This document shows, piece by piece, positions 47,252 through 63,432 of a stretch of DNA of 64,000 nt (position 1 is its first letter; each line of letters begins with the position of its first letter). The translations under genes were made by a program, and so were the position numbers. Under the pieces are notes generated by a model, which ran no database searches, was not told where the DNA came from, and saw only the letters and a list, made by a program, of their open reading frames with translations. The stretch covers positions 62,001 through 126,000 of the forward strand of contig NZ_CP009123.1 in the NCBI RefSeq assembly GCF_000803645.1, given 5' to 3'. The stretch is from Sphingopyxis fribergensis. Its GTDB lineage: Bacteria > Pseudomonadota > Alphaproteobacteria > Sphingomonadales > Sphingomonadaceae.

Positions 47252-47410
47252 GGACCATCCGACATTTGGATCGCCGATATCATCGGGGCTTCCGCCATGT
47301 CATCCGCGGTGACAAACTCAGCTTCGATGACAGAAACTGCCGTATCTCGTGCACTCCGGGCAGCTCAGTTAGGCCCGATCTCCCTGGCGGGACGGCAATG
47401 ACGAAAAGCG

Positions 47411-47611: not shown

Positions 47612-47676
47612 GACAGTCTCCGCCCACCATCGTAGCGGCGAATTTTGAGCGTAAGGTTAACGCATCCATTGGGGCC

Positions 47677-48936
47677 TTATATCCGATTGACCGCCGCCTC
47701 GCAATCAAGACGTCCGGCGCCTTGAGAATGACCGTGATGGCCCAAACTCACAGACGATTTGCGAATGACATCAAACAGTTGGTCTCGGCTGAGCGGCGGC
47801 TCATCCTCCGCGTGGCGCTTCGACTGCAGCAAAGCGATCAAACCTGCGGCTTGGGGACAACAACCACTGGTACCCCATCCGTCCTTCAACACGGAAACAT
47901 TGCTGCCATAGACAACGCGCCCGAAGGGGGGCGTGATCCCAACAAGATCGGGTTTGGGTGACGTAAGGGGCTGTCCCGGAAACTGGCCAGGCCCGCGGCT
48001 CGAATAATACCACATAGATCCGTCTGGCTTGGCCGCACCCACCGTCAATAGATCCGAACGGCCCTTGTGGAGCCAGATCGAGTTCGGCTCGTGGCCATCC
48101 GGAGTTCCTCCTGCCAAATGGTGATAATTGCCTGCGCTGAAGCAGACGATAACACCTGCGGCGATCGCATCATCGAGCGCCGGGATGAAGTCGCTGTCGG
48201 CGGGGACGGGTGGCGGGCTCCCGCTCTGAACACCAAAGCTGTTGCTCGCGATGACAGTGGCACCTTCACGAGCGAGCGAAGTCAGCTCATCATAAATGGC
48301 CGCGAGTTCGGTATCGTAGAAGTGCGTGCGACACGACATAATCATCGCATCGGGCGCGACCCCGTCGAACTCACCGCCCTGACTGCGGGTACCGGCCGCG
48401 ATAGCCGCGCACATGCTTCCATGCCCTTGCCAGTCGGTCCAGGGGTCTTCACCATTGGCTGCCCAAGAGCGCGGATGCCGCTTGTAATGAGGAAATTCGG
48501 GACGCAGACCATCGATACCGGTGTCGACGATCGCTATGACCACACCCTCTCCACGAGAGTGGCTCCACGCTTGCGGGGCCCCAATCGCTTCGATGACGTC
48601 ATCGAGCGATTGCTGCGCTTCGCCTTCGGGAGCGAAGGCCAACGGATTATAGAAATCCAGTTGTTCGAGCGAGTAACGATAGTCTTCGACAATCTCGGCA
48701 CCATAGTGCTGACGAGCGGCCTCAAAGCTCTCCGCCATAAATGAGACTTGCGCGGCAGGCACATCAAGACTGATAACGCGGCGCTCGGGCAGGGCGACGG
48801 CAACGGCGCCCCCAACCGCCTCGATCGCAAGCGATGCCTCAAGCGCTTCGCGCGTGGGGAAGCGCAATTTGTACCGACGGGTTTCCGTGCGACGCTCATC
48901 GAGCAACTCTTGCCCTAGCACTGCTTCACTCGGCAA
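47677..48936 (-). CDS. Subtilisin-like (S8) serine protease without signal peptide
   Basis: The start is taken as TTG 48936, five bases after GGGAGG and overlapping the upstream gene by 11 bases; the open frame further upstream is an artefact. Residues 20-95 are an I9-like prodomain. The catalytic domain has Asp in VVIAIVDTGIDGL, His in DWQGHGSMCAAIAAG, the oxyanion Asn in CFSAGNYHH, and Ser in GWGTSGCCPQAAGLIAL (the usual GTSxAxP reads GTSGCCP). No export signal is visible, so the enzyme should act in the cytoplasm unless carried by its neighbour. The three-gene context is described in the findings. Confidence 0.88.
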   Translation of the reverse strand: MPSEAVLGQELLDERRTETRRYKLRFPTREALEASLAIEAVGGAVAVALPERRVISLDVPAAQVSFMAESFEAARQHYGAEIVEDYRYSLEQLDFYNPLAFAPEGEAQQSLDDVIEAIGAPQAWSHSRGEGVVIAIVDTGIDGLRPEFPHYKRHPRSWAANGEDPWTDWQGHGSMCAAIAAGTRSQGGEFDGVAPDAMIMSCRTHFYDTELAAIYDELTSLAREGATVIASNSFGVQSGSPPPVPADSDFIPALDDAIAAGVIVCFSAGNYHHLAGGTPDGHEPNSIWLHKGRSDLLTVGAAKPDGSMWYYSSRGPGQFPGQPLTSPKPDLVGITPPFGRVVYGSNVSVLKDGWGTSGCCPQAAGLIALLQSKRHAEDEPPLSRDQLFDVIRKSSVSLGHHGHSQGAGRLDCEAAVNRI

Positions 48937-50104
48937 CTTGTCCTCCCTTCGGTTCGGCGGGATCAGTGGGCTCTGTGGGCTCGCAGAATGCCTCCAGACC
49001 TTTGAGTTTCTGGACTTTCCGGAAATCGGTAAGCGTAGTACCGCAAATATATACGCCGCTCTTTTCGATTGCTCCGGTTGCCGGGTCGTCCAGGGTGAAG
49101 CTGGCAACCACACCTCCCGAGACAGCGATCGCCTTTGCCCCCAGAGCCGTCCAGAGGTTTCTGCGCGTGAGCAAGCTCCCGCCTTGGCTGTCGAGATGGA
49201 CGCGCAAGACGCGAGTGTCTGCGCCGAGAAATTCTGCTTGAGCAATAGCGGCGGCAAGACGAACCGTTCCACCCTCCCCGGGCTTCGTCCAGCTCTGATA
49301 AAAGTCGTCGAACCGCTTGATGGCGCCTTCCAGGCGTGCCTTACTGTCGGCCGAGGGAGGAGGCGCCGCCGTGAGCTTCGCCTGCGCTGTGCCACGTGCC
49401 AGGTCGAGGCGATTTAATTGGCACAGGACGCTGTTATTCTTGCTGACGGCAGGGTTAATCCGATACTTTGGTATTACCAATCCAGGCTCGATGGCGGCAA
49501 TGGCCCGCGCGAGAAGTTGAGCATCGAGCTCGGTCTTTATGCCCCGTAGTTCGGTGTCGGTTCGCAGCATACCGGCGACGCCTGTTATGAGCGTACTAAC
49601 GCCCGCACCGACAATTTCGACTCCGATGGTTCCGTCTGTGCATGACGCAAGATCGCCGACGGCTAAGGCGCTTTTCAATTGCGCTTCCACGCCCATTGCT
49701 TCGGCCCGGAAGGTCAGCAACGCGGATAGGTCGAACTGGTCGCTGCCAGCGATGAGGATTGTTTTCGCAGGCGGCTTCGCCTTCTTTACGATTTCTTCTG
49801 CGGCTTTGCGGATAGCGCTTGTCGTCAGCATCGCGGCTTCCGCTTTGCCTGCCCCATCTCCGAGGGTCACTTTTCCTTCTGCTGGCGACTGCGGCAAAAA
49901 CGAAAAGCGAGCCTTCTCGAGGGCAATCTCGGCCTCGATTTCAGCCTTTCGTGCGTCGGCTGCCGCTTTGCGAGCCTCTGATCGCGCCTTTTCCGTTTCG
50001 GCGACCTCCTGCGCGCTATTTTCATTGGCCGATTGAGCACTGCTCTGGCTCGGACAAGAGGCGGCAGCGATCAGGAGTGATGAAATCACAAGGTGTCTTC
50101 TCAT
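48926..50104 (-). CDS. Exported coiled-coil protein, first gene of the S8 protease operon
   Basis: The 392-residue product begins with a signal peptide MRRHLVISSLLIAAASCPSQ that may be lipoprotein-type (AASC), then a coiled coil rich in Ala, Glu, Arg and Lys (residues 30-70, for example ARSEARKAAADARKAEIEAE). The body is alpha/beta with DQFDLSALLTFRAEAMGVE and STLITGVAGMLRTDTELRGI. The C-terminus has Cys residues (VYICGTTLTDF, EAFCEPTEPTD). I do not recognise the family. It overlaps the protease gene by 11 bases. Confidence 0.75.
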   Translation of the reverse strand: MRRHLVISSLLIAAASCPSQSSAQSANENSAQEVAETEKARSEARKAAADARKAEIEAEIALEKARFSFLPQSPAEGKVTLGDGAGKAEAAMLTTSAIRKAAEEIVKKAKPPAKTILIAGSDQFDLSALLTFRAEAMGVEAQLKSALAVGDLASCTDGTIGVEIVGAGVSTLITGVAGMLRTDTELRGIKTELDAQLLARAIAAIEPGLVIPKYRINPAVSKNNSVLCQLNRLDLARGTAQAKLTAAPPPSADSKARLEGAIKRFDDFYQSWTKPGEGGTVRLAAAIAQAEFLGADTRVLRVHLDSQGGSLLTRRNLWTALGAKAIAVSGGVVASFTLDDPATGAIEKSGVYICGTTLTDFRKVQKLKGLEAFCEPTEPTDPAEPKGGQVAE

Positions 50105-50576
50105 GCCCGTTCCCCCTCAGGCCTTCAGAATCGGTAACAGGCTGCAGTAAACTCCCTTAAACCTCAAGTCTGCGGGACATAAATATTATCCCCACATTGA
50201 CATGTATCATCTCATTACGAGATAATTGAACTTATTATCAGGTTCATAAGGCGAGCGTATTCCGTTTGCATCTGCGTATCTTTTTGAATGCGACTCGGGG
50301 TCGCGGCATTATCCTTTGCTCAGAATCCACATGTCGGCAGTGCTGGTCGCAATCAACCAAGGCCTTGAAGCATCACGCCGATCTATTATGATTATGGCTG
50401 TGGGGTGGACAGAGCCGGCAATCGCTCCATAGGATTATCCTGCCGGGTATCACTACGCTCGTTGTTCGCGTCGAGCGGTCGCGGTCGAAATCATCGAGGC
50501 GACGCACCTTGCATCAGTTTGGCACCGGCTATCCCGGGCGCCCGACATCTGTCGGCCCGAGAGGCCAAGTGCATTC
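50105..50576. other. Intergenic region upstream of the lasso signalling genes
   Basis: About 470 bases with no convincing gene. It is relatively AT-rich between 50.17 and 50.30 kb and includes the inverted repeat GATAAT-TGAACTT-ATTATC at 50221-50239. It must contain the promoters for the coiled-coil/protease operon on the minus strand and probably the ECF sigma gene on the plus strand. Confidence 0.45.
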
Positions 50577-51155
50577 ATGCCACCGAACCGCGATTTCCGC
50601 AGCCCGACGGGCGGGCTGAATGCAGAAGACTCGTCCATCGCCGAAGGCAAATCCGCGATCGAGGAAGACATTGAGTCCCTGTTCCGGAAGGAAGCCCCGC
50701 GCCTCACCCGGTATTTCCGCGCGCGGCTTCGCGATGGCGACGACCCAGGCGATTTCGTCCAGGAGTCCTTCGTTCGTCTTGTGGGCTCGTTGGCGCAGCG
50801 GGCGATGCCGACACCCGGTGCCTACCTGCAACGCATCGCCCGCAATTTGCTTTACGACCGCGGCAAGCGCGCGGAGGTGCGACTGGCATCGTTTCATGTG
50901 CCGATCGGCGAAGGATGCGAGCCGGCTGTCTCGCCCGATCAGCATCACGGTATCGAAGCTGAGGACGTGATGCGCGCTTATCGCCGCGCCTTGGCCGAGC
51001 TGCCCGATCGCACGCGAGAAGTATTTCTGCTTCACCGTGTTGAAGAGCTTGCCTACAGAGAGATTGGGGAAAAGCTCGGGATTTCGATTCCCACGGTGCA
51101 ATATCATGTCGCACGCGCTCTCGCCCACATTGACGCGGCCCTGGAGCGGGAATGA
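50577..51155 (+). CDS. FecI-type ECF sigma factor of the lasso cluster
   Basis: The 192-residue ECF sigma has region 2 (EDIESLFRKEAPRLTRYFRA, DDPGDFVQESFVRLVGS, PGAYLQRIARNLLYDRGKRA) and region 4 (LPDRTREVFLLHRVEELAYR, EIGEKLGISIPTVQYHVARA). The first 25 residues are a variable extension. It overlaps the fecR-like gene by four bases. In the usual model the TonB receptor with bound ligand signals through FecR, releasing this sigma factor to transcribe the receptor operon. Here the ligand would be the lasso peptide. Confidence 0.92.
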   Translation: MPPNRDFRSPTGGLNAEDSSIAEGKSAIEEDIESLFRKEAPRLTRYFRARLRDGDDPGDFVQESFVRLVGSLAQRAMPTPGAYLQRIARNLLYDRGKRAEVRLASFHVPIGEGCEPAVSPDQHHGIEAEDVMRAYRRALAELPDRTREVFLLHRVEELAYREIGEKLGISIPTVQYHVARALAHIDAALERE

Positions 51156-52225
51156 ACGAAGATAATGATACGCCAAAGCGGCCCGGTAATCTGAGGGACG
51201 AGGCCGCTGAATGGTTTGCGATCATGCGCGGCCCGGATGCCGATGCGCGCCGCGAAGAGTTCGAAGCATGGCTCGCACGAGGTGCCCTGCATCGAACAGC
51301 CTATAACAAGATCGCGGAGACGTTCAGTATCGGGAAGGGGCTGAAGGAGGATGCGCCGGACGACGCTGACTCTGCCGCGCCGAGTCCTACCAGTCAGAAG
51401 CCCGGAAAACTGAAAATGGCCGGGCTTGCACTGGGCCTCGTCGGCGCGGCGGCGGCGCTCTATCTCGGCGTGGTTTCGCCCGGCAAGCTCAAGAAGGACG
51501 GTCCCGAGATCGCCAATAGCAGTACCACCGGTGGGACCTCGAGCCAGCTGCAGAGCAAGCTCGGTGAGATCCGGGAAGTGCAGTTGCCGGACGGATCGCA
51601 CGTGACGCTCGATACCGATAGCCTTGTGCTGACCAAATTTGACCGGGACCTGCGTGATGTTCGGTTGGTACGCGGTCGTGCCCGGTTCAATGTAGAGAAG
51701 GACAATCGGCCGTTCGTCGTGGCAGCGGGAAATGGGACCATAACCGCGCTGGGAACAAGCTTCGACGTTGGCCTGGCTCGCGACGAGCGGGTCACGGTCC
51801 AACTCTTCGAAGGCTCGGTCGACGTCCGAGTTCGAAGAGATCTGTCTGCGGCCGAAACGCCAGTCCGGCTTGCCCCTGGTCAGCAGCTGATTTTCCGGGC
51901 CGAGAAAGCGGCGGCCCCGATTCAGGTGACCAATGCGCCCGTTACCGATCGGCGTTGGCCCGAAGGGGTCAGGGAGTATGACGGCGTGCGGCTCGGCGAT
52001 GTCCTCGGGGAAGCGAACCGCTACGCGACCGGGCCTATTTTGGTGGCGGCCGCAGACGTCAGCGACAGAAAAGTTTCAGGCACGTACCGCATTCGAGATG
52101 TCGAGCGGCTAGCCGAGAATCTCGCCGATATGCTTCGCTTGGCTCTCATTCGCGGAAACAATCAGCTGCTTCTCGTCAAGACGTGCCCATCACCGCGGAA
52201 GGAAAACTGCACGCCGCCCTCATAA
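51152..52225 (+). CDS. FecR-type anti-sigma/sensor protein
   Basis: The 357-residue product has an N-terminal DUF4880 domain (RDEAAEWFAIMRGPDADARR, EEFEAWLARGALHRTAYNKI), one membrane segment (LKMAGLALGLVGAAAALYLG, residues about 88-107) and a periplasmic FecR domain (REVQLPDGSHVTLDTDSLVL, GRARFNVEKDNRPFVVAAGN, VTVQLFEGSVDVRV), ending in a DUF4974/STN-like part. It would hold the sigma factor at the membrane and read the receptor's STN domain. Confidence 0.92.
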   Translation: MNEDNDTPKRPGNLRDEAAEWFAIMRGPDADARREEFEAWLARGALHRTAYNKIAETFSIGKGLKEDAPDDADSAAPSPTSQKPGKLKMAGLALGLVGAAAALYLGVVSPGKLKKDGPEIANSSTTGGTSSQLQSKLGEIREVQLPDGSHVTLDTDSLVLTKFDRDLRDVRLVRGRARFNVEKDNRPFVVAAGNGTITALGTSFDVGLARDERVTVQLFEGSVDVRVRRDLSAAETPVRLAPGQQLIFRAEKAAAPIQVTNAPVTDRRWPEGVREYDGVRLGDVLGEANRYATGPILVAAADVSDRKVSGTYRIRDVERLAENLADMLRLALIRGNNQLLLVKTCPSPRKENCTPPS

Positions 52226-52291
52226 TTCGAGAGACCGACTCGTCGCTTCCCCAACACCGGCGCGCTCGCCGGGGACAGGGAGGCGAAATTC

Positions 52292-54886
52292 ATGTCAGTA
52301 AGGGGCCAAATCTTTACGTCCGCGATTGCGATCAGTGCGGCGCTGGTTTGCACACCCGCGGCCGCGCAGTCTGAGCAGCGCCGCGGTTATCAACTCGAAG
52401 CCCAGGATTTGGGTTCTGCATTGCGCGCGGTCGGGCGAACGTCGAACAGCGAGATATTCTTCGAGACGGAGATCGTAGACGGAAAGCGAGCGCCAGCCCT
52501 GAAAGGGCAATACACGCCCCGCGAGGCCGTAGAAGCTCTGATCCAAGGGACGAACCTCGTCATCCTCGAACGGCGAGGGGCGATCATTATCCGTGAGCGA
52601 TTTCCCGCGTCGCAAGCGGCAGTGAACGATAGCAGCGGTCAAAGCGAGATTATCGTTACCGGATCGCGCATTCGCGGGGGCCCTGCGACGTCCCCCATCA
52701 CGAGCATCTCTCGACGAGATGCGGAGCGGGCGGGTCAAACCGACCTCGGTCAAGTGATCCGCGATCTCCCGCAGAACTTCTCGGGCGGTCAGAATCCCAC
52801 GATCGCGCCGACGGGCCAAGGCAGTTTTTCGAACGTCTCCGGTTCTTCGACTCTCAATCTGCGAGGTCTGGGCCCAGATGCGTCGCTGACGCTTTTGAAC
52901 GGTCATCGCGTCGCATTCGATGCCATCAGTCAAGGCATCGATATCTCGGCAATACCGCTGGCGGCGATTGAGCGCGTTGATGTGATAACCGACGGCGCAT
53001 CGGCACTCTATGGCTCGGACGCGGTAGCCGGCGTCGCCAATATTATTCTCAGGCGCAGCTTTGACCGGTTGTTCACTTCCGCGCGGATCGGCGCCGCGAC
53101 AGAGGGTGGAGCCTTTGCGCAGCAATATAGCGCTGTAGGAGGTCCTTCGTGGAACGGTGGTAGCGTTATGCTCGCCGGCGACTTCTCCCGAACTGGCGAA
53201 ATCAAAGGACGACAGCGATCCTATACCAGCAACCTTCTTCCCGACTCCACTGTCTTGCCCGGTCAAAAGCAATTGAGCATCGTCCTCGCAGGCAGGCAGG
53301 AAATCTCCGATAGAAGTGTCTTCGAGATTGACGGCCACTTTACGCATCGCACGACGGCGCGCTGTATTTCGCCGACCAGTGCCGCCGTTTCGATAAGCTG
53401 CTACCGGCAAGGGAGTGTTGTCGCCTCGGGCGTCGACAGTTGGTCTGTGTCCCCGGCATTCCGCTTTTCACTGCCCTCGGGTTGGAATCTGAATATCCTA
53501 GGAACTTACAGCCAGAGCAACAACACGATCTCGAATCTCACATATGCCGGCGGCCTCGAGACAATGCGCGTTTTGCCCAATTATGATAATAGCTTGAGGT
53601 CGGGCGAAGCTGGCGCAGAGGGGCCAATTTTTGGTTTGCCCGGCGGCGACGCAAGATTGGCCATCGGGGCGGGTTATCGCTCCAATCGTCTTCGCGTCGA
53701 TTCTCGCCGAATTGTTGGTGGCGTTGAGGCGCCGATCGATGTTTTTCGTGAATCGCGCGAAGTCTTGTTCGGCTACGGCGAAGTGTCGTTGCCGCTGATT
53801 TCAGAGACAAATGCGGTCGCCTTCGCAAGCAAACTGCAGGTGAATGGCGCAATCCGCATCGAGGATCATAGGGGAATCGACCGTGTTACGACGCCGAAGC
53901 TGGGGCTGATTTACGCGCCCATCAACGGGTTAGAACTCAAAGCAAATTGGGGCAGATCGTTCAAGGTTCCGACGCTCTTCCAGACGGGCCAAACGACGAA
54001 TGCACAGTTGGTGCCGGGGTTCATTTTCAACCCCGCGCCCGCAAACGCCAATCCCGTGCTCTTGGTATTTGGCGGCAATGGGAACCTTCAGCCGGAACGT
54101 GCGACCACATTAAGTCTGTCATCGTCGATCGAGCCCGCGGGCCTCCCCGGGCTGAGGATCGACTTGGGATACTTCAGAATTCGATATAAAAATCGCGTCG
54201 CGGAGCCGATTTCTCCGGTGACAAGTGCATTGCTCCAGGTGTTTGGCGACTTTGTAGCGCTCAATCCATCGGCGACAGACGTGCTCTCGAGCGTCGACGG
54301 CCTTACCGGCACATTCGCAAATTTTACAGGCGCCCCCTTCGATCCCGGCGCGGTCGCAGCGATCGTCAACGATCAGCTCCAGAATATATCTCTGCAATCG
54401 GCCGAAGGTTTCGACGGATCAGTGAGTTTTCTCCATGATCTTGGAGACGACAGGACGTTGTCATTCAAGGGCGCGCTGAGCTACCTCGATAGCTCTCGGC
54501 GGATAACGACCGCTCTTCCGTCCATGCCGCAAGCGGGCTTGATATTTCAGCCGCCACACTGGCGCGGAAGAATGAGTGCGAGCTGGGAGGAAGCCAATTT
54601 CGTTCTGAGTGCGTCCGGATCATTTGTTGGCGGCACCAAAGACAATCGATTCCAGCCGAGTGCGAGAGTGCAATCCTTTGTGACTTTCGACACTGTCGCG
54701 ACGTTCCGAAGCGCGAGGGCGAGCGGCCCACTGTCGGGCACGAATTTGACCATCGCTATTCAAAATTTGTTCAATGAGAAGCCCAGCCTCATTCGAACGG
54801 TCGATCCGGCGGCATTCCGATATGACTCGATCAATCATTCGCCATTTGGGAGGGTAATAAGCCTGACGTTGTCGAAGGCTTGGTGA
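52292..54886 (+). CDS. TonB-dependent receptor with STN domain, probable lasso peptide receptor
   Basis: The 864-residue receptor has a signal peptide (FTSAIAISAALVCTPAAAQ), then an STN domain (residues 30-105: YQLEAQDLGSALRAVGRTSN, APALKGQYTPREAVEALIQG) that signals to FecR. The plug follows (SEIIVTGSRIRGGPATSPI, STLNLRGLGPDASLTLLNGH, IERVDVITDGASALYGSDAV), then the barrel with the terminal strand GRVISLTLSKAW. The isopeptidase gene starts one base after its stop, which ties uptake to lasso opening. Confidence 0.92.
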   Translation: MSVRGQIFTSAIAISAALVCTPAAAQSEQRRGYQLEAQDLGSALRAVGRTSNSEIFFETEIVDGKRAPALKGQYTPREAVEALIQGTNLVILERRGAIIIRERFPASQAAVNDSSGQSEIIVTGSRIRGGPATSPITSISRRDAERAGQTDLGQVIRDLPQNFSGGQNPTIAPTGQGSFSNVSGSSTLNLRGLGPDASLTLLNGHRVAFDAISQGIDISAIPLAAIERVDVITDGASALYGSDAVAGVANIILRRSFDRLFTSARIGAATEGGAFAQQYSAVGGPSWNGGSVMLAGDFSRTGEIKGRQRSYTSNLLPDSTVLPGQKQLSIVLAGRQEISDRSVFEIDGHFTHRTTARCISPTSAAVSISCYRQGSVVASGVDSWSVSPAFRFSLPSGWNLNILGTYSQSNNTISNLTYAGGLETMRVLPNYDNSLRSGEAGAEGPIFGLPGGDARLAIGAGYRSNRLRVDSRRIVGGVEAPIDVFRESREVLFGYGEVSLPLISETNAVAFASKLQVNGAIRIEDHRGIDRVTTPKLGLIYAPINGLELKANWGRSFKVPTLFQTGQTTNAQLVPGFIFNPAPANANPVLLVFGGNGNLQPERATTLSLSSSIEPAGLPGLRIDLGYFRIRYKNRVAEPISPVTSALLQVFGDFVALNPSATDVLSSVDGLTGTFANFTGAPFDPGAVAAIVNDQLQNISLQSAEGFDGSVSFLHDLGDDRTLSFKGALSYLDSSRRITTALPSMPQAGLIFQPPHWRGRMSASWEEANFVLSASGSFVGGTKDNRFQPSARVQSFVTFDTVATFRSARASGPLSGTNLTIAIQNLFNEKPSLIRTVDPAAFRYDSINHSPFGRVISLTLSKAW

Positions 54887-54887
54887 C

Positions 54888-57002
54888 GTGTCGTTCCCAA
54901 AGCGCTTCGCCGCGACATTGATGGCCGGGGCAGCGGGCGTCCTCCCACATTCCGCGCTCGCCGCCGATGTCTGCGCGAGATTGGCGCCACCAGCACAGAA
55001 GGAGATTCGTAGCGGTCTCGTCACGCCCGAGCTGCTTGCGCAGCTACGTGATATTGGGCCGGCGACGTTGCCAGACCGCCGCCGAAAGCTGTTCACCATA
55101 TCGCCTGACGGAAAATGGGTGGCGTTTTTCCTCCATCGAGGATTTCCAAACGAAAATGTGTACTGTGCCGGACTGGCTATTCTTTCGCTCGAGAGGCCGG
55201 CAAATGTTCGGATCCTCGATTTTAGCCGCGAACTCATCCGTGACGAACCGCCCAGATATGGTTGGGCGACGTTTCCGATTGGAACTGCCGCGCCAGTTAC
55301 GCCCCGTTGGGAACCGGCGGGGCGCTGGATCGCATATCTGAAACGCGAGCATGGTTTGACTCAGGTGTGGCGTGTCGATGTCGGCACGGGGGCTGCCAGT
55401 CAGGTCACGAATTCTCTCGTGAATGTCGATGACTTCCGGATTACTGAGGACGGACGAACGGTTGTTTATTCGTCCCGCCCAAAATTGCCCGAAAAATCAG
55501 CTGAGATTGATCGGGAAGGATTGAGGGGCTGGCGGTTCGATGCGCGGGCGTTTCCGGTGCGTGGTGCGAGGCCTCAGACGCCCGACGCGGATCGCTTCTT
55601 GACGAGTGTAGATCTTGAAGAGGGGCGGGAACGAGAGGCGCGTGCCGATGAGGCCAATCTGTTTGACATAGCTCGAGGTCTTCCGGGAAACACCACGGCG
55701 TATTCGAGAGCTGCTGGCGGCTCGGAAGCATGGGCGGAAACCATCGACACTCCACTCTTCCCTCCCCTCTATCGCTTGACGGCCAAACGTAACGAAAAGT
55801 CAGAACAGTGCCATTTCAGGGCCTGCGAATTCGATTGGTCCACTTCAGTCTGGTGGAATGACGATGGAACCAGGATTAGATTCACCCGCCGCGAAGGTTG
55901 GGCCAACAGCCTCACCGCCATTTACGAATGGATTCCGGGTCGAGGTGAACCAAAACGCGTTCTCCTCACCAGCAACGCGTTGATCGAATGTCAGCCGATC
56001 GCAGATGACCTGCTCTGCCTGCAGGAGCGGTCGCAACGACCGCGCCATTTCGTGAGACTTCAGCTCGCTGCCGGCCAAATCAAAGAGATATTTGATCCGA
56101 ACCCGGAGTTTTCGAACCTTTCGCTCGGGCGCGTAGAGCGCTTGAATTGGCTCAACGCTAAGAATGTGCCCTTTTATGGGGATCTTGTTTATCCCGTCGG
56201 GTACGAGCCTGGCCGCCGCTACCCGATGGTGATCGTTCAATATCGGACCAAGGGATTTCTTCGCGGGGGTATCGGGGACGAGGTGCCGATCCAAACGCTT
56301 GCCGGAAGAGGCTACTTCATTCTCAGCGTCGACAATCTGACATATGAAGATATCGTCGGGAGAAAACAATCAATCGAGCAACTCGTAGCAGCCTTCAACG
56401 ACGATTTCAGAGGTAGACGGAGTATTTTATCGGCGATCGAAATCGCCACCCGGCGACTGATCGACAAGGGTCTCGTCGATCCGCAGCGTATCGGAATCTC
56501 CGGACTGAGCGATGGATGCACCACAGTTCAGTTTGCCGCGGTAAATAGCCAGCTTTTTTCAGCTGGGTCAGTCTCAGGCTGTGGATGGGAGCCCTTCCAA
56601 GACGCGATCTTGGGGCCAATGATCGCGCAGAACTATCACGAAAGCGGGTGGCCTCGCCTCGCGGACGCGAACCCCGGGTTCTGGTCGAAGATCTCAATCA
56701 CCCTTGATCCCCGACGCGTGAGATTTCCGTTCCTTTTTCAGGCTTCGGACAATGAATATCTAGCGATGGTCGGTAGCCACACGGCGTTAGTTCAAGCAGG
56801 GATCCCCAGCGATCTCTATATTTTTCCGGACGAAGATCACATCAAATGGCAACCCGCGCACCGGTTGGCAGTCTATAGGCGCAATCTCGATTGGTTTGAT
56901 TTCTGGCTAAAGGGCTTGGTGCCGAGCGATCCAGCACGGAAAGCAGAAGCCGAGCGGTGGTCGGAAATGAAGGCATCGTGGAAGAGACCGATTCCAAAGT
57001 AG
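54888..57002 (+). CDS. Lasso peptide isopeptidase (AtxE2-like, prolyl-oligopeptidase fold)
   Basis: The 704-residue product starts with GTG one base after the receptor stop and has a signal peptide (FAATLMAGAAGVLPHSALAA). A beta-propeller part (ISPDGKWVAFFLHRG, WEPAGRWIAYLKREHG) precedes the alpha/beta hydrolase with Ser541 in GISGLSDGCTT, Asp621 in QASDNEYLAM and His651 in DEDHIKWQPAHR. The spacing matches what I remember of AtxE2 (Ser527, Asp610, His638). It would cut the isopeptide bond of the imported lasso peptide in the periplasm. It ends seven bases from the convergent cyclase gene. Confidence 0.9.
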   Translation: MSFPKRFAATLMAGAAGVLPHSALAADVCARLAPPAQKEIRSGLVTPELLAQLRDIGPATLPDRRRKLFTISPDGKWVAFFLHRGFPNENVYCAGLAILSLERPANVRILDFSRELIRDEPPRYGWATFPIGTAAPVTPRWEPAGRWIAYLKREHGLTQVWRVDVGTGAASQVTNSLVNVDDFRITEDGRTVVYSSRPKLPEKSAEIDREGLRGWRFDARAFPVRGARPQTPDADRFLTSVDLEEGREREARADEANLFDIARGLPGNTTAYSRAAGGSEAWAETIDTPLFPPLYRLTAKRNEKSEQCHFRACEFDWSTSVWWNDDGTRIRFTRREGWANSLTAIYEWIPGRGEPKRVLLTSNALIECQPIADDLLCLQERSQRPRHFVRLQLAAGQIKEIFDPNPEFSNLSLGRVERLNWLNAKNVPFYGDLVYPVGYEPGRRYPMVIVQYRTKGFLRGGIGDEVPIQTLAGRGYFILSVDNLTYEDIVGRKQSIEQLVAAFNDDFRGRRSILSAIEIATRRLIDKGLVDPQRIGISGLSDGCTTVQFAAVNSQLFSAGSVSGCGWEPFQDAILGPMIAQNYHESGWPRLADANPGFWSKISITLDPRRVRFPFLFQASDNEYLAMVGSHTALVQAGIPSDLYIFPDEDHIKWQPAHRLAVYRRNLDWFDFWLKGLVPSDPARKAEAERWSEMKASWKRPIPK

Positions 57003-57009
57003 ATTACGA

Positions 57010-58755
57010 TTATGCACGCGACCAATGTGCGGACCAGGCCTCTGCATCCAGAAGGGCCATGATCCGCGGGCAGTCATTCAGCCCATTCCCGCCGCTCGAT
57101 CGACGAAGCGGCTCGATTGCGGAGCGATCGATTATCCCGTGCCCTGCCAGGCGCCCATCGCATAGTCGATCGATTATTTGCGATCGATGCCGATCGATGA
57201 ACTGTGCAATGAAGCCGTCGGGGCTTCCCTTGCCCGCCCTTTCGACTACCTCGCGCGGCAGCACGGATGCAAAAGCACGACGGGCGACCGAACGATCGAC
57301 GCCGCCCTCACAGGATTCCCACGACGGAATGCTTAGGCACAGTTCAACGACCGGCTGAGACAGGAGAGGCGAGATCATTGGCATCGCGAGCTGTTTATCT
57401 CGATGCTCGACGTGGTTCATCGCCTGAAGAATCATCGCAACGTGACCGAGCTTTCCGAGCGGGGCGTCCCGTGGTGGACTTAGCCAGGGGTGCTCGACCG
57501 CTCGGCCTCGCTCGCTTGCGACAACATCCGGGTGCAAATAGTCAGATACGGCGCTCCAGCGCATTTTCTTGGAACGCGAAAACAAAAGCCGGACGGTCTC
57601 GATCAATGCCTCACCGACGCCGGCTCCCGTGATCTGGCATATATCGCGCAGCGTGTTCATAACGCCGGGCGAAAACCCTTCTTTACGGAATCGGTCCGCT
57701 AAGGGTCGCGCGGAATGCGTAAGGTAGAACACATTGTCCCCGCCGGCTCCAACAAAGAAGGCGTCGGCATTTTGTGTAGATGCGGCCTCACGGATTGCAT
57801 GATTGTAGGCTTGTTCATGTGATTTGCCGCACGGGAATGGGATCCCTTCGGCAACAGACCTGTCCAGGTCGATGAGCCGGTCAATATAGGGCATCTCAAT
57901 GAGCTCAGCCCCAAGGGCAGCACTAACCGCACGAGCATACTCCGTCTCGTTTCCGGTCGTGTCAGCGGTCGTCAAGGTCGTGCAAACAAAATCGGAGCCC
58001 GCGCCCGCGAGACAGGCAGCGACTATTGACGAGTCCAATCCACCTGACAGCCCCACCAACGGCCGATTAAAGGATGACCGCCAAGCGGAAAACGTCGATC
58101 CGAGCACGCCGAAAAGGCAATCGGAACTTGGTCCGGATGCGCCGATCGGCTCTATATGGTTCCAAGGATTCCACAGCGGCGTTGCCACCACTCTTGACCC
58201 GACGATCGAGAGTGCGTTTCCTGGGAGCAGCTGCATTATTCCTTCAACCGCTGTATGCTCTGAAGGAAGCTGGTGATGATAGAGGAAACGACTGACAGAC
58301 TTCCAGTTGACCGAGCGGCCAACGACGCCCCAATCAACTAGAATTTCCGCGTCGGACGAAAATGCAATGACGCAGTCAGTCTGACTCCAGTAGCAAGGGA
58401 GGCCCCCAGAGGGTTCGCGCACAACGTTGATGGCATTCTGGTTGATGGCGATGGCGACGAAGTTGCCCCAAAACTCGTCGACGAGGCGGCGTCCGCCGCT
58501 CTCCATCACCGCCAATTCATCGTCATAGGACAAGGCTTTCAGTTGTTGTCCCGGCCCGCGATCGCAAAACAGCTTGCCGATGACAAATCCACGGCCGTTT
58601 GCGACGGTGATGATGTCGTCAGGATCGTTCGTGAAAAGAAAGACGTTCCCTTCCTGGTGTCTCAGTGAAAGATCGGAACGCGAGCAAAATTCGTTGACGT
58701 CGTGATCGGACGGATGATTTCCGACGCATACAAGAAGGAGGTAAGAAAGGCGCAT
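57010..58755 (-). CDS. Lasso peptide cyclase (C protein, asparagine-synthetase-like)
   Basis: The 581-residue protein has a degenerate N-terminal glutaminase-like domain lacking the N-terminal Cys (MRLSYLLLVCVGNHPSDHDV) and an ATP-pyrophosphatase domain with LVGLSGGLDSSIVAACLAGA (SGGLDSS motif, near residue 225), CTTLTTADTTGNETEYARAV, and FFVGAGGDNVFYL. It adenylates the Asp8 side chain and joins it to the core's N-terminal Gly. Its ATG shares one base with the stop of the B gene (TAATG). It would be translated with it. Confidence 0.93.
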   Translation of the reverse strand: MRLSYLLLVCVGNHPSDHDVNEFCSRSDLSLRHQEGNVFLFTNDPDDIITVANGRGFVIGKLFCDRGPGQQLKALSYDDELAVMESGGRRLVDEFWGNFVAIAINQNAINVVREPSGGLPCYWSQTDCVIAFSSDAEILVDWGVVGRSVNWKSVSRFLYHHQLPSEHTAVEGIMQLLPGNALSIVGSRVVATPLWNPWNHIEPIGASGPSSDCLFGVLGSTFSAWRSSFNRPLVGLSGGLDSSIVAACLAGAGSDFVCTTLTTADTTGNETEYARAVSAALGAELIEMPYIDRLIDLDRSVAEGIPFPCGKSHEQAYNHAIREAASTQNADAFFVGAGGDNVFYLTHSARPLADRFRKEGFSPGVMNTLRDICQITGAGVGEALIETVRLLFSRSKKMRWSAVSDYLHPDVVASERGRAVEHPWLSPPRDAPLGKLGHVAMILQAMNHVEHRDKQLAMPMISPLLSQPVVELCLSIPSWESCEGGVDRSVARRAFASVLPREVVERAGKGSPDGFIAQFIDRHRSQIIDRLCDGRLAGHGIIDRSAIEPLRRSSGGNGLNDCPRIMALLDAEAWSAHWSRA

Positions 58756-59408
58756 TATGCCACCAGAATGGGCATAAACATCCGGACCCTATCAGGCTTT
58801 TCGTTGAGGACTGTGGCCCCGCGCTGCACCCAGCAATGCGCTGCAAACGGATCGGTCTGCACGCCCACGACGATCTCGGCCTGTAGTCCACGATTGCGAC
58901 ATGTGGCGACGAGCGCCAAGGAACGCTCCAGACATCGATCATGGCTTCCTACCAGTAGATCAGTAAATTCGAACGCCCGCAGGATGGTCGCGAGCGACGC
59001 TTCGGTGCGTGGTTGCTCAGTCTCAATCACGTTCTTCTTGAGCCTTGCGACGATGCGTTGAAGAGGCCAACGCCTTAGTCGCCTCTTCCAGAGAAGCCGC
59101 GCCACCAATGCTCGGATGGTTTCGATAGGCGATAAGGTGGCGCCACCGTCGTGCGTCGACGTCGGCAATATTGTCGCTACCGGTTTTGGTATGACCGCGT
59201 TTTCGACGACCGCGAGAATCCCGCGCTGCGCCAATTTCGTCAGCTGATGGCTGTCGGCCTCCGACGGATTCTGCTCGGTGATCCAGCGATGAAATGCGTC
59301 GTGATTGCAGTCGGCAAGCGCAATGTAGCGCCCCGAGTGCAGATCGAGAATGATTGTACGGCTTTCTGCAGAACAGAAGCTGAGCCCATCGCGAAGTGCG
59401 TAATTCAT
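58755..59408 (-). CDS. Lasso peptide B protein (RRE plus transglutaminase-like leader peptidase)
   Basis: The 217-residue product combines an N-terminal PqqD-like recognition element (YALRDGLSFCSAESRTIILD, SGRYIALADCNHDAFHRWI) with a C-terminal cysteine protease domain (HDRCLERSLALVATCRNRG with the catalytic Cys, DPFAAHCWVQRGATVLNE with the His). This fused B arrangement is the proteobacterial one. It binds the leader and removes it at the TK-G junction of the precursor. The preceding gap holds a stable hairpin. Confidence 0.92.
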   Translation of the reverse strand: MNYALRDGLSFCSAESRTIILDLHSGRYIALADCNHDAFHRWITEQNPSEADSHQLTKLAQRGILAVVENAVIPKPVATILPTSTHDGGATLSPIETIRALVARLLWKRRLRRWPLQRIVARLKKNVIETEQPRTEASLATILRAFEFTDLLVGSHDRCLERSLALVATCRNRGLQAEIVVGVQTDPFAAHCWVQRGATVLNEKPDRVRMFMPILVA

Positions 59409-59426
59409 AAGTCAGAGTGGCCTGTA

Positions 59427-59457
59427 GGCGCGCGAACCTGAGTAAGATTCACGCGCC
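59427..59457 (-). promoter_or_regulatory. Hairpin between precursor and B genes
   Basis: On the minus strand GGCGCGTGAA pairs with TTCGCGCGCC over ten positions, one being a G-T pair, with an 11-base loop. It lies 19 bases before the B start and 8 bases past the precursor stop. As in other lasso clusters it probably protects or partly terminates the message so that more precursor than enzyme is made. Confidence 0.65.
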
Positions 59458-59464
59458 CAACGGC

Positions 59465-59593
59465 TCAATCGTCCGAAAGACCGGCGCGGGGAAGCTGTCC
59501 GCCGACGCCGTCGGTCAGAATCTCGCCGACACCTTTGGTTTCCTCGGTGACGGCGCCGAGATCGATGAGATCGTCATTCTGTTCGTGGTTCAT
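59465..59593 (-). CDS. Lasso peptide precursor, 42 residues
   Basis: ATG follows GGAGA by seven bases. The leader is MNHEQNDDLIDLGAVTEETK (20 residues), ending in the required Thr at position -2. The core begins with Gly1 and has Asp8 as ring acceptor: ring GVGEILTD, tail GVGGQLPRAGLSDD, 22 residues in all. The YxxP-type leader motif is absent, but DLGAVTEETK resembles leaders of caulonodin/astexin-type precursors. The core's Asp8 ring and DD end resemble syanodin I as I recall it. The gene order is GntR, precursor, B, C. By hand calculation the lariat's monoisotopic mass is about 2107.05 Da. Confidence 0.9.
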   Translation of the reverse strand: MNHEQNDDLIDLGAVTEETKGVGEILTDGVGGQLPRAGLSDD

Positions 59594-59619
59594 GAGATTC
59601 TCTCCATTCGCTTTCGATC

Positions 59620-59634
59620 GCTGCGGAACGCAGC
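59620..59634. promoter_or_regulatory. Short palindrome upstream of the lasso precursor
   Basis: GCTGCG-GAA-CGCAGC is a six-base-pair inverted repeat with a three-base spacer, 27 bases before the precursor ATG. It could be a regulator-binding site or a leader hairpin; no test is possible from sequence. Confidence 0.35.
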
Positions 59635-59762
59635 ATTGCGAATGTTAGTGAGGCTCTCCCTGATCAGCGACGCGATAAGGCCCCGGATATGGGAGCGCTT
59701 TGGGTGATCCGCTCGGACAAAGTCGAACTGCTCGCAGGAGTGGTTTCATTATCATTGCAGAA

Positions 59763-60416
59763 TCAATATGAAAGATCGTCGCAGTGAGGACTCCCCACGG
59801 CCGCGGCAATTTCAATTACGCGTCGCAGACGCCGGCGATGATAGGCCCAAATCGACCGGACGAGGTCTGGCCATCGACCTTCTACGGTCAAGGCCTGCAC
59901 CGCCCTAAGCTCGTCCGCCACGCCATTGAGAACCGCGGGCTCCCTCAACCTCGCGACGCTGAGTCGCTCACCAGCAGACGCGACCGCGCAGGCAAGTTCA
60001 CCGCTTGGAGATACTGCCGCAATTGCTGAAAACAGGCGAGCCGTCGCAGCCGCAAGGCTGGCCGGCGTTGTCAGCTCCGGAAGAGGATCGATGGCCATCT
60101 GCACGGCTGACTTGGCATCGATGCGTTTCGGATTCAGGGCACTGCGAACGAGCTGGCCATGCCAAAAGTACAGGTCTCGCAGTTCGGCGACACCGACATT
60201 TGGTATTTCGTAGCCGCCTCCGGCGTGCAGTGAGAGCAGGCGTTCGCCAACAAGCTGGGAAGCTGCATTCCGGATCGGCGTTACGCTCGTACCATAGTCA
60301 TCGGCCAGCGATCGCTCGATCAGCGTGGTGCGCGGCGCGAAGCGGCCACGAAGGATATCGTCCTTCAGGAGCGCGTATACGCGAGACGATGTAGCGGGGC
60401 TGGAAAGCATCATGGC
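59763..60416 (-). CDS. GntR-family regulator of the lasso cluster (FadR-like)
   Basis: The start is placed at 60416, before MLSSPATSSRVYALLKDDIL; an ATG at 60494 would add 26 residues with no family features. The winged helix reads RVYALLKDDILRGRFAPRTT, LIERSLADDYGTSVTPIRNA, GGYEIPNVGVAELRDLYFW. The all-helical C-terminal domain is shorter than typical FCD and lacks the usual His cluster, so ligand binding is uncertain. It precedes the precursor on the same strand by 169 bases. Such GntR genes commonly border sphingomonad lasso clusters, I believe. Confidence 0.8.
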   Translation of the reverse strand, partial: AMMLSSPATSSRVYALLKDDILRGRFAPRTTLIERSLADDYGTSVTPIRNAASQLVGERLLSLHAGGGYEIPNVGVAELRDLYFWHGQLVRSALNPKRIDAKSAVQMAIDPLPELTTPASLAAATARLFSAIAAVSPSGELACAVASAGERLSVARLREPAVLNGVADELRAVQALTVEGRWPDLVRSIWAYHRRRLRRVIEIAAAVGSPHCDDLSY

Positions 60417-60627
60417 GGAAGCCCAATCCTGCCGCGACGACCGGCTGAGTACCGGATGCGATCGCAAATGGTGGTGGGTTGGACAGGCATCCAATCAGTT
60501 TCGCGATTCTTCTCATGGTACGTTCACTGCTCGCACCAAATAAATCAGAGAAAACCGCGAGGTCAAAAGAAACAGTCCTCAATTCTGGAGCAATATTCTC
60601 CGTTGAACTGCACTCTTCAACCAATTT

Positions 60628-61143
60628 CTATTCGGGCATTTCCTTGGCCTGCGCGACCGCCTCGTCCAGTCGGGCCAGCGCGAGCCCTATCTGCAATTGC
60701 ACTTGCGCGACATCTATATGCAGTTGCTCGGCGATTGCTTCATATGGCAGCCCGTCCAGCGCGTGGGTGAGAAATATCTGGCGCATCTCCTCCGGCATAT
60801 CAGCTACCGCAGCTTCGAAGCTTCGGCGACCCGGCGTGTCTGCTCGGGCGGGAAAAACAGTCGAAATTTTCACCCAGGCGCGAACCCAGCTAGTGCCGTC
60901 CGGGTTGACCTCGATTACCCGCTCATCCTGATCAATTCGGAGGAACGATGTCGTGGCCCATCGTTCGCGAGCTTCCCGGATTGCTGGATGCGCCGGTGCC
61001 GTCAGACGTTTTAGTTCCTCTGCCACGCGTGCGGCGAGTTCTCGCCTTCGAGCCCGGCGCTGGAATCCCATCTCGACGAGTTCGCCGTTCTCCAGAGAAT
61101 GGAGGAGTTGCTGGAGAAGCTCGATTATTTGGCGGGTGGTCAT
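60628..61143 (-). CDS. Sigma-70 region-4-like HTH protein
   Basis: The 171-residue protein has a GAAGGG site eight bases before the ATG. Its last 60 residues match region 4 (MPEEMRQIFLTHALDGLPYE, AIAEQLHIDVAQVQLQIGLA). The first 110 are a basic helical part (FQRRARRRELAARVAEELKR) with no region 2. It resembles the two small HTH proteins at the window start in kind, though not closely. It may be a regulator borne by the accessory region. Confidence 0.65.
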   Translation of the reverse strand: MTTRQIIELLQQLLHSLENGELVEMGFQRRARRRELAARVAEELKRLTAPAHPAIREARERWATTSFLRIDQDERVIEVNPDGTSWVRAWVKISTVFPARADTPGRRSFEAAVADMPEEMRQIFLTHALDGLPYEAIAEQLHIDVAQVQLQIGLALARLDEAVAQAKEMPE

Positions 61144-61356
61144 GATGTATGCCCTTCGTGACGGCCGACCGTTCGCAAAGCGGTACGGGTCGACATGGAA
61201 TATGGTGCGCGGTCAGGGAACGCTGGGCTCGAACTCCCTAGGCATTCCTCTGATCTGCCTTTCGCTTCCCTCTCCCCTCCTTCGCGTCCATATGGACGCT
61301 GAAATCCTTGGGGCCTGTCTCATCCGGTGATGCAGGCAGGGTGCGTTGGGGTCTGC

Positions 61357-61782
61357 ATGACTGACAAATTTTCGCTCGATCGCTTTGTGGAGGTTCAAAT
61401 TCTCACCTATGCGCCTGCGCTCGCCGAATTACGGCGAGGGGAGAAGCGGACGCATTGGATGTGGTGGATATTTCCTCAGCTTGCGAAGCTAGGCCGCAGC
61501 TCGACAGCGCAGCAATTTGCGATTCACTCGGTGAAGGAAGCTCAGGCCTATCTGGACCATCCGATTCTAGGGCCACGTTATCTGGAATGCGTGACGGCTC
61601 TGCAGGACCTCAACACCAGCGATGCCAATGCAGTCTTCGGAGAGGTTGACGCCAAGAAGCTTCGCTCATCGCTCACCCTGTTCGAGCTAGCCTATCCACA
61701 TCCGCTATTCGCCGCAGCTCTTGATCGTTGGTTTGGCGGTGTGCGAGACACGAGAACGTTGGAGTTGCTCGGTAAAGCATGA
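61357..61782 (+). CDS. DUF1810 family protein
   Basis: The 141-residue product starts at ATG 61357 (MTDKFSLDRFVEVQILTYAP). The features LAELRRGEKRTHWMWWIFPQ, LDHPILGPRYLECVTALQDL and FGEVDAKKLRSSLTLFELAY are typical of DUF1810, a small family sometimes linked to calpastatin-like annotation without functional proof. Its stop overlaps the next start (ATGA). Confidence 0.85.
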   Translation: MTDKFSLDRFVEVQILTYAPALAELRRGEKRTHWMWWIFPQLAKLGRSSTAQQFAIHSVKEAQAYLDHPILGPRYLECVTALQDLNTSDANAVFGEVDAKKLRSSLTLFELAYPHPLFAAALDRWFGGVRDTRTLELLGKA

Positions 61783-62900
61783 CGAGGCCAAAGCACAGAA
61801 CACCTCAGCCGGGTGATCCCATGTTCACCCTCACTGAGTTGGAGGGGCCGGAGGGCGGCGACCCCCGAACGTTAAGCTTCGCCAACGCCCAAGTCCAACC
61901 TCTGGATTTTGCGACTCTGCAATGTGCGAAGATTCATAGACCAGTGACCATTCCGCTCGTTTGGCGCGGCGGCACGCTGATCGATACGACGATCGAGGGA
62001 CGTACGCCCGGCGAAACCGTCGACGCATCGGCAATTCTTGAAAGCAAGTTCACTTCCAAGGCGATCGGCCTCGTAAAGGGGGGCTGGCTCCCATCGGCCT
62101 TCGCGGTGATGTATCAGAAGACCATGATCCTGGTGGACCGCAATGTCGTCAGCCAGATCACCAGCCGCTTTGAAAACGGCAAGCGGCGCGGCGAGCAGGA
62201 ACCCGATTTTATCGACCTGTTCGCAGACCAGCCCATCCGCATCAATCCGCTCCTTTTCGTTCTCGAAGGCAATCGCCGTACGATTCCGACGCCGGACGAG
62301 GCGGCGGCGCAACTCGCGGAGGTCGAGATGAAGCTGCGCGCTGCTCTTCCCGAAGCGGAACTCGCCATCGGCCCCGACAGTCTAAAGGGCGCACTCGGAC
62401 TCATCGAAGATTCAAGGGCATCTCTGGATTGCAAGCAGCGCTTTCTGCGCCATATCGCTCCCCGGATGACTTCGCCGGTAGCGCAGCGCGACGTCGAGAC
62501 GCGGTGGAAGCAGATCATCGAGGCCGCCGACCTCCATTCGGTGCCGCGACAGTCGCTGGTCGTGCTGGCCGCTCTCAGCGCAGTCGCGGTGCCCAACTGT
62601 AAGAGCCCCGCCAAGCGGCTGCTCAAGTTCCGAAACGGGTATTCCGAAGCTGACGCCTACAATGCGCTCGCCGACCTGCGGGCCATCGAGCTTTTCATCG
62701 GATGCCACTGTCTGTTTCCGGAAGAGCCGATGCAGCTCTGTACCGGCGACAAGGATATGGCTTTGCTCTGGAGCGGTCTTCAGGCTTCGAACTTTCGGCG
62801 AAGCGGGACAGGTTTCAGCTACGACATGGCCCCAGTAGAGGGACTGTTTCCTCAAAGCCTCGGGCTTTCGTGGAAAGCTTATCTGGAAGAGGGGAAGTGA
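61779..62900 (+). CDS. Unknown protein with PIN-like features
   Basis: The 373-residue product has an N-terminal region (residues 60-105) of unknown fold followed by MILVDRNVVSQITSRF and, near the C-terminus, ADLRAIELFIGCHCL and LCTGDKDMALLWSGL. The spaced Asp residues in VDRN, ALADLRA and TGDKDMA are arranged as in PIN nucleases, which suggests a diverged PIN domain, but I am not sure. It is coupled to the DUF1810 gene upstream and to the membrane-protein gene downstream (TGATG junction). Confidence 0.6.
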   Translation: MTRPKHRTPQPGDPMFTLTELEGPEGGDPRTLSFANAQVQPLDFATLQCAKIHRPVTIPLVWRGGTLIDTTIEGRTPGETVDASAILESKFTSKAIGLVKGGWLPSAFAVMYQKTMILVDRNVVSQITSRFENGKRRGEQEPDFIDLFADQPIRINPLLFVLEGNRRTIPTPDEAAAQLAEVEMKLRAALPEAELAIGPDSLKGALGLIEDSRASLDCKQRFLRHIAPRMTSPVAQRDVETRWKQIIEAADLHSVPRQSLVVLAALSAVAVPNCKSPAKRLLKFRNGYSEADAYNALADLRAIELFIGCHCLFPEEPMQLCTGDKDMALLWSGLQASNFRRSGTGFSYDMAPVEGLFPQSLGLSWKAYLEEGK

Positions 62901-63397
62901 TGTTCTGCCCATTGGCGATCGAATGGGGAAATGCCGCCGATTGGGCTTCGGCTATTGCGAGTTTCTGCGCCGTCGTCGCGGCGCTGTGGATCGCGTTCGG
63001 TCAGGAACGAAACGCCCGCAAACTCGGGCAGATCGCCAAGAACGAGGAGCACGCACGCACGGCGCATCTTATCGGGGAAGTCATAAGACTGACCGCCGAG
63101 ATCGAGGCGTTCGCGAACGCGGGCGCGATGTTCGCGGAGATGGGTGGAGGCCGGGATGGAGGATTGGTTTCCCATAGTCAGGACATAGAAGGTGCTCGTG
63201 CGCAGTTGTCGGCGCTTCAGCATTATCCTCAATCCGACCCGCGTATCTTCGGCGAGATCGGTCGCATCATCCGAGAAAGTGCTCTTCCTTCCGATTTCTT
63301 GGCCAGCAGCATTTCCTTTCAAGGGATCGTCTGCCGCGGTCTAGCCGAAAGGCTGGCGCCCCGCCGCGCGATCCTTGCGCAGCTGCTTTCATCATAA
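62900..63397 (+). CDS. Small protein with one N-terminal membrane segment
   Basis: The start is the ATG at 62900, sharing one base with the upstream stop; the open frame further upstream is a shadow. The 165-residue product has one membrane segment (ADWASAIASFCAVVAALWIA, residues 13-32) followed by a helical cytoplasmic part (FGQERNARKLGQIAKNEEHA). The form resembles small membrane effectors in two-gene systems. The family is unknown. Confidence 0.65.
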   Translation: MFCPLAIEWGNAADWASAIASFCAVVAALWIAFGQERNARKLGQIAKNEEHARTAHLIGEVIRLTAEIEAFANAGAMFAEMGGGRDGGLVSHSQDIEGARAQLSALQHYPQSDPRIFGEIGRIIRESALPSDFLASSISFQGIVCRGLAERLAPRRAILAQLLSS

Positions 63398-63432
63398 TCG
63401 TGAGGCGTTGACCGTTCCCGACGCCCACCGTC

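Follow-up and report, generated by a model that had tools for sequence, protein, structure and literature searches.

Among the isopeptidase-type lasso peptide gene clusters known to the review PMC9266682, the architecture is near-constant, with GntR-A-B-C facing isopeptidase-TonB-FecR-sigma. The cognate peptides of the isopeptidase AtxE2 are astexin-2 and astexin-3 (PMC9266682), and sphingocin (spgABC/E of Sphingomonas BPH) is described from a B-gene insertion mutant that lost growth on phenanthrene, the peptide not having been isolated (PMC11006600). We analyzed a 64,000-nucleotide stretch of Sphingopyxis fribergensis DNA (positions 62,001 to 126,000 of contig NZ_CP009123.1, assembly GCF_000803645.1; the window), in which an earlier note had pointed to a complete lasso peptide system with its precursor gene A at 59465-59593 on the minus strand. 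The cluster belongs to the known kind, because its architecture is the one published as near-constant (PMC9266682) and its nearest core is a published one. It is very probably a plasmid-borne lasso system of the benenodin/subterisin type, composed of control, maker and reader/eraser modules, with some reader/erasers occurring alone. Beyond the earlier note, the analysis revealed such lone loci and the mosaic structure of the clusters.

We propose the term receiver-only locus for a sigma-FecR-TonB-isopeptidase unit with intact receptor and isopeptidase and without A, B and C. The survey covered 199 genomes of the family and 80 of the genus, four genomes being in both samples. In the family sample, by-eye counts of the listed rows gave 6 of 36 isopeptidases over the cut-off with no B match on the contig closer than 20 kb, and in the genus sample 8 of 88 with none closer than 10 kb; three of these eight lie at contig ends (L090, L093 and L094, with a C gene visible at L090 and L094) and were not counted as receiver-only. 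There was no maker remnant in G000 (the genome of the window), G105, G155, G154 (receptor in two frames), G268 (two loci, and no B anywhere in the genome) or at a locus common to G232 and G269, which is 100% identical between the two over 19 kb; G153 and G189 have a C gene without B. An additional receiver-only locus, L147, came from a metagenome assembly. With 46 B and 54 C sequences as queries, tblastn detected no B or C belonging to L024, L064, L079, L088/L089, L091, L092 or L147, the C at the edge of L089 being part of a neighboring maker cluster. The Ser-Glu-His residues are intact in all of these loci, as is the STN-plug-barrel series in the six receptors tested, so that intact receptor and isopeptidase do occur in the absence of A, B and C.

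Two of these units can be matched to makers. The genome of the window itself holds one at C1:4572457 (sigma, FecR, STN-TonB and isopeptidase), where tblastn found no B or C fragment and no precursor motif was seen. Its isopeptidase is 60% identical to that of the window. Its nearest maker row is that of Sphingobium sp. RAC03 (barrel 82% and isopeptidase 73% identical), whose core, GPGFDNSDGIGGQQLVPGLSDD, recurs unchanged in Sphingobium sp. YR768 and S. limneticum; the homologous RAC03 precursor is not in the PLSDB table, which is incomplete by design. Conversely, the receiver-only unit of G232 (Sphingopyxis sp. GW247-27LB) and G269 is of the window's own kind, with 94.7% identity in the isopeptidase, 96.1% in the barrel and 95.8% at the nucleotide level over 52647-56935, and neither genome has a B close to that of the window (best 41%). 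Judging by these loci, import and cutting of a peptide may also occur in some bacteria that do not produce it, and receiver-only strains would be a natural experiment on the purpose of isopeptidase-type lasso peptides.

The receiver-only state is scattered across the isopeptidase tree: 7 changes are required among 61 rows and 6 among 51, in both cases forced by supported branches; a single receiver-only clade was rejected by the approximately unbiased (AU) test (p 5e-10). Trees and correlations were computed without near-identical rows, and L010 and L061 were also left out of the isopeptidase tree used for the AU test. On the sigma and FecR trees, receiver-only loci other than L061, a recent decay, stand apart from makers, with 2 changes on each tree and 0 of 500 shuffles as low. 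When 12 FecRs not beside a family lasso isopeptidase were added, 44 maker-side FecRs fell on one side of a branch (Shimodaira-Hasegawa-like approximate likelihood ratio test (SH-aLRT) 92, 0 of 500 shuffles as low) and seven receiver-only FecRs were intermixed with the general ones. A special receiver head was dropped at this point, and we speak of a general head because the receiver-only FecRs scatter among general FecRs; we infer that a dedicated head is needed where a maker is present to control. Within single receptors, identity to the window is 24% in the STN head and 96% in the barrel for L088, identity to RAC03 is 25% and 82% for L024, and the two receiver-only heads share 60% identity.

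Alignments to relatives delimit a constant left end in the window (50364-52647; sigma, FecR and the STN head of the receptor), and alignments and identity correlations an exchangeable cassette (52647-59533; receptor plug/barrel, isopeptidase, C, B and core). A constant right end follows (59534-61143; leader, promoter region, GntR and region-4 protein), which is 91% identical in nucleotides to G217 despite a different core and B. Identity to G217 is 96% over 45939-53175 and 91% over 59532-61794, dropping in 60-base bins inside the breaks to 43-70% on the left (from 53220) and 47-67% on the right. The right break falls at the leader/core junction, with 97% in bin 59540 and 52% in bin 59480. The G217 contigs break inside C; its precursor combines the leader MNHEQNDGLIDLGAVTEETK, 19 of 20 residues as in the window, with a different core, GPGPQGFDTLGPQQLRGGISDE. 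The maker cluster of G232 likewise matches the window at its ends (sigma 96%, FecR 96%, GntR 90%, region-4 protein 89%, leader 19 of 20 residues) and departs from it in the middle (receptor 67%, isopeptidase 57%, C 48%, B 41%). Plasmid pDB-1 of Sphingopyxis sp. DBS4 (NZ_CP102385.1) serves as a flat control, aligning once at 88.7% across 11.4 kb with no breaks.

Correlation of identities over 36 maker clusters, and then over the 27 in which GntR adjoins A (giving 351 pairs, distant GntR genes removed), separated ends from middle as two blocks in both sets. Over the 27, r was 0.65-0.79 within GntR, sigma, FecR and STN, 0.57-0.80 within barrel, isopeptidase, C and B, and 0.35-0.49 between the blocks. 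The correlation between GntR and sigma, which sit at opposite ends some 9 kb from each other, was r 0.79 (partial r given B 0.74, 0 of 999 permutations as high), and that between GntR and its neighbor B was r 0.43, or 0.11 after controlling for sigma (42 of 999 as high). Core similarity, computed over 21 clusters and 210 pairs with two-precursor clusters left out, gave r 0.59 with isopeptidase, 0.58 with C, 0.48 with barrel and 0.45 with B, compared with 0.09 for GntR and 0.15 for sigma; the core therefore varies with the middle block, not with the ends. Core, B, C, isopeptidase and barrel thus vary jointly between constant ends, the breaks lying at the leader/core junction of A and, in the receptor, between STN and plug. 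Cassette exchange would be one way in which the family acquires new peptides, the 42-codon precursor gene allowing the core to change while leader and control stay, and the cassette structure suggests that the pairing of receptor and peptide can be read from sequence alone.

The following working of the system is suggested. B would cut off the 20-residue leader and C would join Gly1 to Asp8, closing the ring, after which the 22-residue lasso would exit the cell, no ABC transporter having been found among the ten proteins scanned. The TonB receptor would re-import it across the outer membrane, barrel and plug recognizing the peptide, while the STN head would signal to FecR so that the sigma factor is released; the isopeptidase, periplasmic judging by its N-terminus, would then open the ring, and GntR before A may provide a second control. 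In evolution there would be three modules: control ends (GntR, promoter and leader; sigma, FecR and STN), maker (core, B and C) and reader/eraser (barrel and isopeptidase). Maker and reader/eraser would swap together as a cassette within the constant ends because they must fit one another, and leader and control would stay because they are generic. Where a reader/eraser stands alone under a FecI/FecR head of the general type, it may import and cut the peptide of others. On balance, we lean toward viewing these lasso peptides as shared, specific ligands whose maker and reader/eraser are exchanged as one cassette, with lone reader/erasers under general nutrient-type FecI/FecR control, including a strain fitted to the window peptide and the window strain itself fitted to a Sphingobium peptide.

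Several points weigh against this view. Decay is plain to see at some of the loci lacking B (L061 with its receptor in two frames, L068 with B lost and C shortened, L065 with C and no B) and therefore accounts for part of the receiver-only pattern. Pairwise identities are not independent; with the closest pairs removed, GntR-FecR falls to 0.31 and GntR-STN to 0.41 (GntR-sigma 0.64, middle genes 0.18-0.25). In the full set, GntR-barrel retains a partial r of 0.17 with sigma controlled for (7 of 999 permutations as high). Leader correlations are weak, at 0.40 with sigma and with GntR, 0.36 with isopeptidase and 0.33 with B, and the left breaks range from about receptor residue 119 into the plug. 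The sigma and FecR trees both carry long-branch warnings. The maker-side FecR branch has an SH-aLRT of only 92 and includes L061 and L065, the general FecRs were chosen by likeness to one receiver-only FecR, and six isopeptidase loci without FecR, makers among them, stand outside the FecR tree and the correlations. A clear head swap is seen in two receiver-only receptors only, L088 and L024; the heads of the other four (22-36%) say little, because their nearest barrels are just 43-58% identical, and those head values are near those of maker pairs at like distance. Finally, for the window cluster, the product, its transport and its signaling are deduced from the genes.

The strongest competing explanation is that the peptide is a nutrient or metal carrier, a siderophore-like public good, and that receiver-only strains are cheaters. 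The FecI/FecR/STN-TonB logic, the existence of receiver-only loci and the co-variation of core and barrel all suit such a carrier, as does the acidic C-terminus. Of the predicted cores fitting the search pattern, which ignored the C-terminus, 33 of 34 have an acidic last residue (27 Asp and 6 Glu, the exception being Ala), and the four further complete precursors from a laxer search, also included in this tally, all end in Asp. The pattern had found a precursor in 31 of the 46 loci with B, the laxer search adding these four and pieces in five; its precursors were kept out of the correlations. To our knowledge, no metal binding has been described in the isopeptidase-type lasso family, a free acidic tail would chelate weakly, and the reading of a signal accounts for the same facts, so that we consider a carrier role doubtful. 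The free acidic C-terminus may be the feature recognized by receptor or isopeptidase.

Receiver-only loci might also be inactive remains of once complete clusters from which drift has removed A, B and C. An erosion series can be drawn from G032 (C in two pieces, B kept) through G153 (B gone, C short) to G189 (C without B), and G154 has its receptor in two frames where its sister G096 is full. However, the loci L024, L064, L079, L088/L089, L091, L092 and L147 described above have intact catalytic residues and no B or C of their own, and the six tested receptors keep their domains. Loss alone would not yield receiver-only FecRs that differ in kind from maker FecRs, and omega between window and L088, averaged over both lineages, is 0.12 (barrel) and 0.28 (isopeptidase), the argument being weaker for the isopeptidase. 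We regard general decay as an unlikely origin for these loci. The sister loci L067 (G032) and L068 (G153), the one with C in two pieces and the other with B gone and C shortened, seem to have been caught in maker loss; isopeptidase and receptor frames are open in both.

Lasso peptides such as MccJ25 enter cells via TonB receptors, and the peptide could be a bacteriocin, with isopeptidase and receptor conferring self-immunity by uptake and destruction and receiver-only loci giving immunity to target strains. Intact active-site residues in receiver-only loci would be in keeping with resistance. The import of a toxin through a dedicated receptor would nevertheless be an odd defense, and a scan of ten proteins encoded from 50577 to 61782 gave no match to the ABC transporter family, so the transporter D gene that marks antimicrobial lasso clusters of the MccJ25 kind was not found there. 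Known isopeptidase-type lasso peptides except astexin-1 are moreover without antimicrobial activity (PMC9266682), and we judge a bacteriocin quite improbable. That a different precursor or cleavage site is the real one is hardly credible: the DBS4 copy does have a longer in-frame start, but the 900 bases upstream of B in the window contain a single lasso-pattern open reading frame (ORF), and the leader/core split is the one published for sphingocin (PMC11006600).

Translation of 59465-59593 gives 42 residues, MNHEQNDDLIDLGAVTEETKGVGEILTDGVGGQLPRAGLSDD, divided into a 20-residue leader (59534-59593; MNHEQNDDLIDLGAVTEETK) and a 22-residue core (59468-59533; GVGEILTDGVGGQLPRAGLSDD). It scores 60.7 bits with Pfam PF24178 Subterisin (cut-off 27) and 43.2 bits with NCBIfam NF033522 benenodin (cut-off 33), and it bears the family signature of Thr at -2 (T-K before G), Gly1 and the Asp8 acceptor. 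Translation and the two family models thereby support the precursor, the cleavage site and the 8-residue Gly1-Asp8 ring read from the letters beforehand, and the predicted lasso [M+2H]2+ of m/z 1054.5345 agrees with the ion of m/z 1054.53 given then. A likeness to syanodin I was suggested in the same place; the nearest published core found is that of sphingocin, at 16 of 22 residues. All 42 residues recur on pDB-1, where the gene differs at 7 of 129 nucleotides, and because all seven changes are synonymous (7 versus 0), the precursor appears to be under strong constraint. The idea that such a gene is easily missed by gene callers did not hold up: the identical DBS4 gene is annotated as WP_148309302.1, "benenodin family lasso peptide", and failure of the gene caller is ruled out for that genome.

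The neighbors named in the earlier note (B, C, isopeptidase, STN-type TonB receptor, FecR, sigma and GntR) were all recovered in place with profile matches. On the minus strand, the B protein for leader binding and leader cleavage (58755-59408) matches PF13471 and scores 79.5 bits with NF033537 (cut-off 33), and the asparagine-synthetase-like macrolactam cyclase C (57010-58755) matches PF00733. Facing them on the plus strand are the AtxE2-family isopeptidase (54888-57002; NF033523, 742 bits against a cut-off of 400), the TonB-dependent receptor (52292-54886; STN at residues 55-101, plug at 133-248, then barrel; PF07660, PF07715 and PF00593), FecR, an anti-sigma factor (51152-52225; PF04773 and PF16220), and a FecI-like extracytoplasmic function (ECF) sigma factor (50577-51155; PF04542 and PF08281). 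Upstream of A, also on the minus strand, are a GntR regulator (59763-60494; PF00392), a TTG-start ORF for which an ATG near 60413 is possible too, and a protein with sigma-70 region 4 only (60628-61143; PF08281), which adjoins GntR in G232 and G217 as well (89% and 94% identical). A family precursor, a Cys/His B protease, an asparagine-synthetase-kind C and an AtxE2-family isopeptidase are what defines benenodin/subterisin-type clusters, and the layout agrees, with GntR before A, the TonB, FecR and sigma genes beyond the isopeptidase, and no transporter in the proteins scanned.

In B, Cys159 and His191 are kept in 46 of 46 aligned proteins, and the third active-site position is Glu in the window (Asp in 33, Glu in 8, Gly in 4 and Gln in 1 of the 46). 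C contains the motif LSGGLDSS. The isopeptidase has Ser541, Glu623 and His651 at the positions of what we take to be the AtxE2 catalytic triad; its residues 12-698 align to solved AtxE2 (PDB 5txc and 5txe, E 2e-121) with the catalytic Ser aligned, one AtxE2 chain showing Ala at that position. Gene content, precursor and these motifs support the earlier claim of a complete isopeptidase-type lasso peptide system, whose product is a predicted one.

The window comes from the second contig, 208,588 bases long, of a 5.2 Mb genome, and the match to pDB-1 with its identical precursor marks the cluster as plasmid-type and of Sphingopyxis. The 18,056 bases at 45945-64000 are 99.994% identical to a contig of G218, Sphingopyxis sp. 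LC363, held as another species, probably through recent plasmid transfer. The genome of the window contains three further maker clusters, L008, L009 and L010, each accompanied by TonB and isopeptidase-like genes; the latter pass the family cut-off in L008 and L009 but not in L010, and one of the three clusters carries two precursors. The same genome has two B-type genes (C1:4690669 and C1:4315871) without a nearby isopeptidase over the cut-off. C1:4572457 was ruled out as a fifth maker cluster, there being no A, B or C. Elsewhere, L133, a divergent isopeptidase-TonB unit that has a sigma and a FecR of its own, lies beside a maker cluster in G232:C4 and below the family threshold used; it is possibly another receiver-only unit. 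L092/L138 (G268:C1) are tandem TonB-isopeptidase-like units, the second peptidase (GQSFG) being far from the AtxE2 family, and at L067, L068, L069, L073, L074 and L101 the sigma gene directly precedes the TonB receptor, with no FecR found.

We found no report of the exact window core, of receiver-only lasso loci or of cassette exchange in the literature searched (titles and starts of abstracts, with few subscription papers covered), and the available portions of PMC9266682, PMC13352647 and PMC7549694 contain nothing on receiver-only loci or cassette exchange. With the benenodin-1, astexin-2 and -3, subterisin and sphingopyxin clusters (PMC9266682) the window shares the layout and the Pfam/NCBIfam precursor families, and it differs from them in core sequence, in its plasmid-like contig and in the visible cassette boundaries inside A and the receptor gene. 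Sphingocin (PMC11006600) has a 22-residue core, GPGFINNDGVGGKLPFAGLSDD, with 16 of 22 residues as in the window, including G1, D8 and the tail GVGG.LP.AGLSDD, in a cluster that likewise has B, C, isopeptidase and TonB without an ABC transporter. The phenanthrene phenotype belongs to the sphingocin mutant (PMC11006600), whereas the window cluster is known from its genes alone. The exact sphingocin core is also present in G200 (L105), in a cluster whose B, C, isopeptidase, receptor and head differ from those of the window. AtxE2, a homolog of the window isopeptidase, has astexin-2 and -3 as its substrates, whereas the activity of the window enzyme is predicted from its sequence. Siderophore receptor piracy and the pyoverdine lock-and-key relationship offer a further parallel, in which maker and receptor co-vary and receptor-only strains exist. 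In the window, by comparison, a ribosomally made lasso peptide is the predicted ligand, and an enzyme dedicated to cutting it is encoded alongside.

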